Source: Herminiimonas sp. (GTDB taxonomy: Bacteria > Pseudomonadota > Gammaproteobacteria > Burkholderiales > Burkholderiaceae_D). Taken from it: a stretch of DNA of 46,960 nucleotides. The notes below the pieces were generated by a model. That model did no database searches and was not told the DNA's origin. It worked only from the letters and a program-made list of their open reading frames with translations. The translations under genes and the position numbers were made by a program. Positions 2,842-3,805 of this stretch are shown here, piece after piece. Each line of letters opens with the position of its first letter. The stretch's first letter is position 1. The DNA lies in NCBI GenBank assembly GCA_014376645.1, contig JACMRD010000042.1:1-46960 (forward strand). Reading direction: 5' to 3'.

Positions 2842-3738
2842 TCAACGGACAAGCTCTTGCGAGATGGCATCGGCCACGCGATCCAGATCCGTGATGATGA
2901 CCACGCCGGCCATCGTGTCTTGTAATCGCAGGGCGCCTGCGCCGCCGGCCCACATCGAGGTCGTGACAGGCAATGCCTGGCGAAGCTGTGTCAAGAATGT
3001 CGCGGCATTCTTGAGCGCGAAGCGGTCACTGAGCGACAGCGCCACGATGTCCACCTGGTACTGCGCCGCTGCCAGAACAATTTCATCGACGTCGAGTTGA
3101 GCACCCAGCGACACGCACCGTGCGCCTTCAAGACAAAGAATCGCCTCTACCATCAGCAAGCCGAGGGTATGCAGTTCGCCTTGCGGCGTCGTCAGGAGTA
3201 CCCGCAGCCCAGTACGCGGGCCTTCGATCGCGGTAATTTCGCGCCTCAGAAGCGTCTTGATGCTCTCGGTGTAGAGGTGTTCGTTGCGAATGCCGATCCG
3301 GCCATCGGCCCACGCGGCACCGACCAACACATTAAGTGCAGGTACGAGGTGCACCACGAATCCGCGCAGGCCCAGGCGACCCAGGTGACGGTACAGGAAG
3401 TCGTCGATATGCAGCGGATCGTTCGCGTGCAAGGCCGTGATCACATCCTCGATGGTTGGGTTGCTCAGGACGATCGTTTGCGACGTGACCATCGACGCAT
3501 GCATCTCCCTGAGAACATCCATCTCCGCCGGGACCACGTGGCGCGGCGGCAACCCGGCATCGAGGAGCAATTTGACGAGCTGCAGACGCTCGACCTGATC
3601 CTGGTTGAAGCGGCGGTGTCCAAGGGCATTCCGTTCGGGAATGGGGAAGCCATAACGCACCTCCCATTTGCGTATCACTTCCTTGGCTAATCCCGTCATT
3701 GCAGCGACGGTAGCGATTGAAAATTTATCGGTGGTCAA
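2842..3738 (-). CDS. MerR-family regulator with cobalamin-binding domain, CarH/LitR-like
   Basis: 298 aa; MerR HTH (VIRKWEVRYGFPIPERNALGHRRF), W143-x9-E153-H154, and E-x-H-x2-G-x41-S-x-S-x27-GG B12-binding pattern counted directly in the translation. Confidence 0.85.
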   Translation of the reverse strand: MTTDKFSIATVAAMTGLAKEVIRKWEVRYGFPIPERNALGHRRFNQDQVERLQLVKLLLDAGLPPRHVVPAEMDVLREMHASMVTSQTIVLSNPTIEDVITALHANDPLHIDDFLYRHLGRLGLRGFVVHLVPALNVLVGAAWADGRIGIRNEHLYTESIKTLLRREITAIEGPRTGLRVLLTTPQGELHTLGLLMVEAILCLEGARCVSLGAQLDVDEIVLAAAQYQVDIVALSLSDRFALKNAATFLTQLRQALPVTTSMWAGGAGALRLQDTMAGVVIITDLDRVADAISQELVR

Positions 3739-3805
3739 AATAATTCTGTCTTAGACAAAAATGCTGTGATACAGTTGGTTACAGTAATCTTTACAGGAAA
3801 ATAAC

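Follow-up and report, generated by a model that had tools for sequence, protein, structure and literature searches.

A CarH/LitR-like regulator without the upper axial histidine of Thermus CarH, and its predicted operator, in Herminiimonas sp.

Introduction

In Thermus thermophilus CarH (PDB 5C8D/E/F), Trp131 and Glu141 hold the adenosyl group of adenosylcobalamin (AdoCbl) and His177 is the lower ligand, and after photolysis His132 takes the upper ligand place (PMC10442372). The need for this bis-His state in light signalling is disputed, since the H132A variant was mostly tetrameric in light in that study, in conflict with an earlier report which, as cited there, saw H132A disassembly. The Thermus response also integrates oxygen and the redox state of Co (PMC10442372). 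CtMerR of Chloracidobacterium (PDB 8JBS/8JBT), a MerR-family protein with the photosensor signature, has an Arg in place of His132. Its AdoCbl is still photolysed with Co-C cleavage in green light, and the end state is water-ligated and involves the Glu of the EH pair (PMC11796333). The published criterion for an AdoCbl photoreceptor combines Wx9EH with the classic B12 motif; CarA of Myxococcus has kept this motif but does not need B12 to act (PMC9304148).

The class II LitR proteins of Pseudomonas (PplR/PmlR) combine a MerR domain with a four-helix bundle, and their signal comes from a short LOV protein (PMC9758184). In Pseudomonas putida, ufaM, folE, phrB and cryB are, as cited in the same paper, light-inducible under LitR homologs. 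UfaM, UfaD and UfaO make furan fatty acids (PMC7380195). The blue-light response of Vibrio cholerae includes a MerR-like protein (PMC5241685). Here, a related regulator gene is described from a 46,960 bp stretch of a Herminiimonas sp. genome (the window).

Results

The regulator gene and the features of its product are as follows.

2842-3738, minus strand: MerR-B12 photosensor-type regulator gene, 298 aa, TTG start; putative photosensor
Residues 5-68 of the 298-aa regulator: MerR HTH
Residues ~94-170: four-helix bundle
Residues ~176-298: B12-binding Rossmann domain
3277-3312, minus strand: W143-x9-E153-H154 photosensor motif, with A144 at the position of Thermus CarH His132
3160-3177, minus strand: E188-L-H190-x2-G193, predicted lower axial cobalamin ligand motif

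The reading frame is intact (298 codons), and the open frame is just four codons longer (302 aa). Pfam placed a MerR_1 HTH (PF13411, 5.6e-14) at the N-terminus and a B12-binding domain (PF02310, 3.7e-10) above cut-off further on. The closest solved relatives by PDB sequence match were the Thermus CarH structures (4e-25). These were also the top Foldseek matches (5c8f/5c8d/5c8e, with 5c8f at 6.4e-18) of the AlphaFold2 model, a prediction with a pLDDT of 89.8, and the TM-score by target reached 0.86 for the B12-binding part. The protein is accordingly predicted to have a four-helix bundle and a Rossmann fold resembling CarH. The first-pass annotation had proposed a MerR HTH followed by W143-x9-E153-H154, which was exact, and E188-L-H190-x2-G193, S235-x-S237 and G265-G266, all of which were found as described. 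The structure prediction and Thermus CarH alignment that it called for agreed with it as well, W143 and H190 lying at the structural positions of W131 and H177.

The alignment comprised full-length Thermus CarH (locus L104), the window regulator and 39 other homologs. In addition to the two pairs above, E153 aligned with E141, H154 with H142, E188 with E175, G193 with G180 and S235 with S222. The W/E/H/E/H/G residues were invariant in 36 aligned homologs and present in 40/40 sequences of the wider proteobacterial set, a conservation far beyond chance. The third B12 element deviates from S-x-T/V; this S-x-S, earlier taken as a deviation of the window protein, is the norm of the clade (39/40). 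Wx9EH and the classic B12 motif, the pair given in PMC9304148, thus occur together in the window regulator, as do all the key residues of the PMC11796333 signature (W131, E141, H142, H177).

A point absent from the first-pass annotation is that Thermus His132 is replaced by Ala144. Across the 40 sequences the equivalent position held A (21), M (6), V (4), L (3), S (3), E (2) or Q (1), and His in none. A search of 399 genomes from this phylum gave a further sample, the 29 best CarH-profile matches; the complete W/EH/H177 signature was present in 11 of these 29, and His132 in 0/11. The Arg176-Asp201 pair, which forms a dimer salt bridge in Thermus, is also missing (Leu189/Gln214). With A144 in place of His132, this position cannot support the bis-His chemistry of Thermus. 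All Thermus adenosyl-holding and lower-ligand residues are kept, and with the precedent of CtMerR, photolysis is therefore likely while the bis-His state is excluded here. Light would thus likely be sensed by AdoCbl photolysis and not via the Thermus end state. Five CarH-like proteins from proteobacteria that fall towards Thermus CarH in the tree (L116, L117, L120-L122) also had no His at position 132, carrying Asp or Asn there.

The score against the CarH equivalog (NCBIfam NF052513) was 111.3 bits, against a curated cut-off of 400. In the tree, the window regulator grouped with the clade without His132, which a fully supported long branch separated from Thermus CarH. L003 and L002 are closest to it, and all three have an unusual KWEVRY recognition helix. 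The window regulator itself has a long branch, with 33-40% identity to its relatives, and the exact placement of such branches is unsure. The published sequence criterion places it, as a divergent protein, within the CarH/LitR superfamily of AdoCbl photoreceptors; it is neither a CarH equivalog nor a Thermus-type bis-His switch. The earlier description as CarH/LitR-like holds for the AdoCbl-photosensor signature and the CarH-like fold; it does not extend to the bis-His state (A144), the Arg176-Asp201 pair or the equivalog score.

Domain order, fold, MerR recognition helix, W131/E141/H142 and E175-x-H177-x2-G are shared with Thermus CarH at ~29% identity, whereas His132 and the Arg176-Asp201 pair are not. 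Phytoene synthase and photolyase genes neighbour the tandem 11-bp repeats that Thermus CarH uses; the window gene has a palindrome and no such neighbours. CtMerR resembles the window regulator in family, signature and absence of His132, but has Arg where the window has Ala, shows ~22% identity and has a differently built DNA-binding part. The class II LitR proteins share the MerR domain and four-helix bundle, and their regulons (ufaM, folE, phrB, cryB) resemble the neighbours of the window protein's relatives. They differ in having no recognisable B12-binding domain, in their short LOV partners and in their site, given as TGTACA-N12-GGTATA. The class III LitR of Burkholderia is a MerR-type light regulator from a related host group, and its C-terminus reportedly shows no similarity to known domains, whereas the window regulator has PF02310; it is set apart by this description.

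Upstream of the regulator gene, three features were located.

3745-3759, no strand assigned: predicted operator palindrome TCTGTCTTAGACAAA, 14/15 to TTTGTCYWRGACAAA
3908-4153, plus strand: divergent 81-aa protein gene, ATG start, preceded by a ribosome-site-like GGAGAG; candidate co-regulated target
3717-3744, plus strand: weak match to a sigma-70 promoter (TTGAAA-16-AATAAT) that would serve the divergent ORF; its end adjoins the operator

The operator is centred ~14 bp upstream of the regulator TTG start, between the regulator gene and the divergent ORF. TTGTCYWDGACA or its mirror was present upstream of 26 of the 41 clade genes examined against 0.03 expected by shuffling. This figure makes the significance look somewhat too high, since only base composition was preserved in shuffling and the same sequences had prompted the choice of pattern. 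Strong sites occurred in 26 non-redundant loci, and 15 of these had another palindrome 62-64 bp away (~6 helical turns; chance rate 0.0003 per position). This pairing suggests that one oligomer bridges the two palindromes. Around the window operator no second palindrome was found at this distance, and the site is single. Its half-sites are of the TnnACA type but form a palindrome, in place of the tandem 11-bp TnnACA repeats of Thermus. The sigma-70-like matches were not more numerous than the shuffled background. No report of the clade operator was found in the searched literature, which does not prove novelty.

Paired TTTGTCYWRGACAAA palindromes at 62-64 bp were observed upstream of the regulator genes L004, L014, L019, L020, L031, L059, L060, L062 and L108. 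Relatives with such paired sites are numerous, both within the betaproteobacteria and outside them, and most of their regulator genes adjoin ufa, folE2 or gpx genes.

In the genome (~90% complete) the strict 12-bp core occurred once, at the window gene. Searches with the 15-mer at two mismatches gave no excess over a reversed-pattern control, and of the other near-operator matches all but a weak one on C68 fell within reading frames. A target may be missing from this count, because the genome is ~90% complete. The regulon, earlier called unclear, can be narrowed to this one strict operator in the regulator's own divergent promoter region.

The neighbours listed in the first-pass annotation were confirmed for the nitroreductase (PF00881), DUF427 (PF04248) and the small ORF, and the HTH gene was weakly supported by a DicA match (E 0.0015). 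The small, 81-aa ORF has homologs in two other genomes at 62% and 52% identity and is therefore a real gene. Its family shows conserved HLHAQT-x3-GEG-x2-NF-like and YLW-x3-D-x-AE stretches and no Pfam match. As a conserved partner of the regulator it was rejected, its homologs elsewhere not adjoining CarH genes. Nor was the nitroreductase accepted as a B12-related BluB, since it scored 23.7 bits where the cut-off is 150. No linked light-protection gene was found in the window.

The relatives of the regulator are mostly divergent from or adjoining genes for a UfaD-like FAD oxidoreductase, a UfaO-like DUF1365 protein and a UfaM-like CMAS methyltransferase, with chalcone-isomerase-like, MFS, DUF3833 and SDR genes as further neighbours. 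FolE2, glutathione peroxidase, photolyase-like DPRP and desaturase genes occur as alternatives. The relatives are in this way linked to photo-oxidative-stress genes; one that can be cultured and has the ufa operon linked is that of Azoarcus sp. KH32C. The window gene is an orphan with a single operator; other orphan copies were L002, L003, L018, L030 and L060/L061, together with Comamonas, Caballeronia and Eleftheria plasmid copies. A BLUF photoreceptor gene was located less than 4 kb from the orphan copy on a Comamonas endophytica plasmid (L106 2369-2767).

Elsewhere, the Herminiimonas genome encodes MetH and also an AdoCbl-dependent mutase of the IcmF type, matched in part where a contig ends, and AdoCbl is for this reason presumably available in the cell. 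A complete furan-fatty-acid type operon with glutathione peroxidase was found on C113 (L102 5182-12754). Unlike in related genomes, it has no LitR gene linked to it, and its promoter regions do not contain the palindrome. It was rejected as a target on account of these promoter regions, the match with one mismatch (C113:12323) being inside the gpx gene. A second CarH-like copy on C233 proved to be a MerR HTH only, in a 129-aa open frame with no B12 domain. A carotenoid link was dismissed: C215 has two PF00494 genes in tandem, which we take to be the hopanoid/squalene genes HpnC/HpnD, and no CarH lies near them. A photolyase link was dismissed as well, the C66 photolyase contig having no regulator of the CarH/LitR family. 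The regulator was absent from the single congener examined. A contig scan with a single protein detected one relative only, the multi-genome search being far more sensitive.

Discussion

The gene, its domains and motif residues, the predicted fold and the sequence and conservation of the operator come directly from the analysis; from these we infer AdoCbl binding, a light response, repression and the targets of the window regulator. It is most likely a putative autoregulated, light-released local repressor, with itself and the divergent 81-aa ORF as likely targets. In the dark the regulator would bind AdoCbl, with H190 as the lower ligand and with W143 and E153/H154 holding the adenosyl group. 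The loaded regulator would form an oligomer, occupy the palindrome at 3745-3759 and repress its own gene, probably also the gene of the divergent 81-aa ORF. On exposure to green, blue or UV light the Co-C bond would be cleaved, the adenosyl group would leave and repression would be released. For the light state, water- or hydroxo-cobalamin appears more likely, perhaps stabilised by E153 as in CtMerR. The three TACAG copies at 3770-3796, between the operator and the divergent ORF and with spacings of 10 and 12 bp, are possible extra binding half-sites.

We consider it probable that the regulator is of the CarH/LitR type, from a distinct proteobacterial branch, and acts as an AdoCbl-loaded dark repressor released by light. 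It is rather unlikely, with a chance that still deserves attention, that cobalamin is bound and that the signal, instead of light, is redox/oxygen or cobalamin status, with AdoCbl told apart from other forms, photolysis without His132 not being coupled to release. The absence of His132 from all 40 clade members, the block of most light-driven dissociation by H132A in Thermus CarH and the integration of oxygen and Co redox state there (PMC10442372) would fit such a sensor. The strict conservation of the adenosyl-holding W143/E153/H154 and the link of the relatives to photo-oxidative genes speak for light, and CtMerR, with Arg at the His132 position, keeps green-light Co-C photolysis (PMC11796333).

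That the protein works independently of B12 with a fossil B12 domain, light input coming via a short LOV/BLUF partner or an antirepressor, would follow the examples of Myxococcus CarA and the LOV-signalled class II LitR, and the BLUF gene near the Comamonas homolog is in line with it. We find this improbable, as CarA is without the Trp of Wx9EH and class II without a recognisable B12 domain, whereas the window regulator has both, and no partner gene is seen next to its gene. Very improbable, in our judgement, is a decaying orphan that has moved, is losing its regulon and retains little function. The long branch, the lack of a strict remote operator in the genome, the single instead of paired site and the absence from the one congener would suit it, but the frame is intact, the key residues are all kept and the operator is intact at 14/15.

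For the light-released repressor that we favour, the wider setting can be drawn tentatively, at somewhat less than even confidence: proteobacteria would have a large separate branch of AdoCbl photoreceptors which never use His132, with another light state, a distinct operator (typically paired palindromes six turns apart, maybe bridged by one oligomer) and a role in membrane photo-oxidative defence, the window gene being its single-operator orphan. The interest of the window gene alone is modest and that of the clade it exposed is greater. Every clade member examined lacks His132 and keeps all adenosyl-contacting residues, and the bis-His question is thereby directly testable. The clade also offers candidate green-light switches, and its predicted sequence-specific operator allows regulon prediction in betaproteobacteria.

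Two minor observations concern other genes. A distant homolog of the 81-aa protein lies among phage-like genes (L100). At 1034-1669 of the window, a LigB-type dioxygenase match spans only ~110 of the 269 positions in the profile; the gene may be truncated or in decay.
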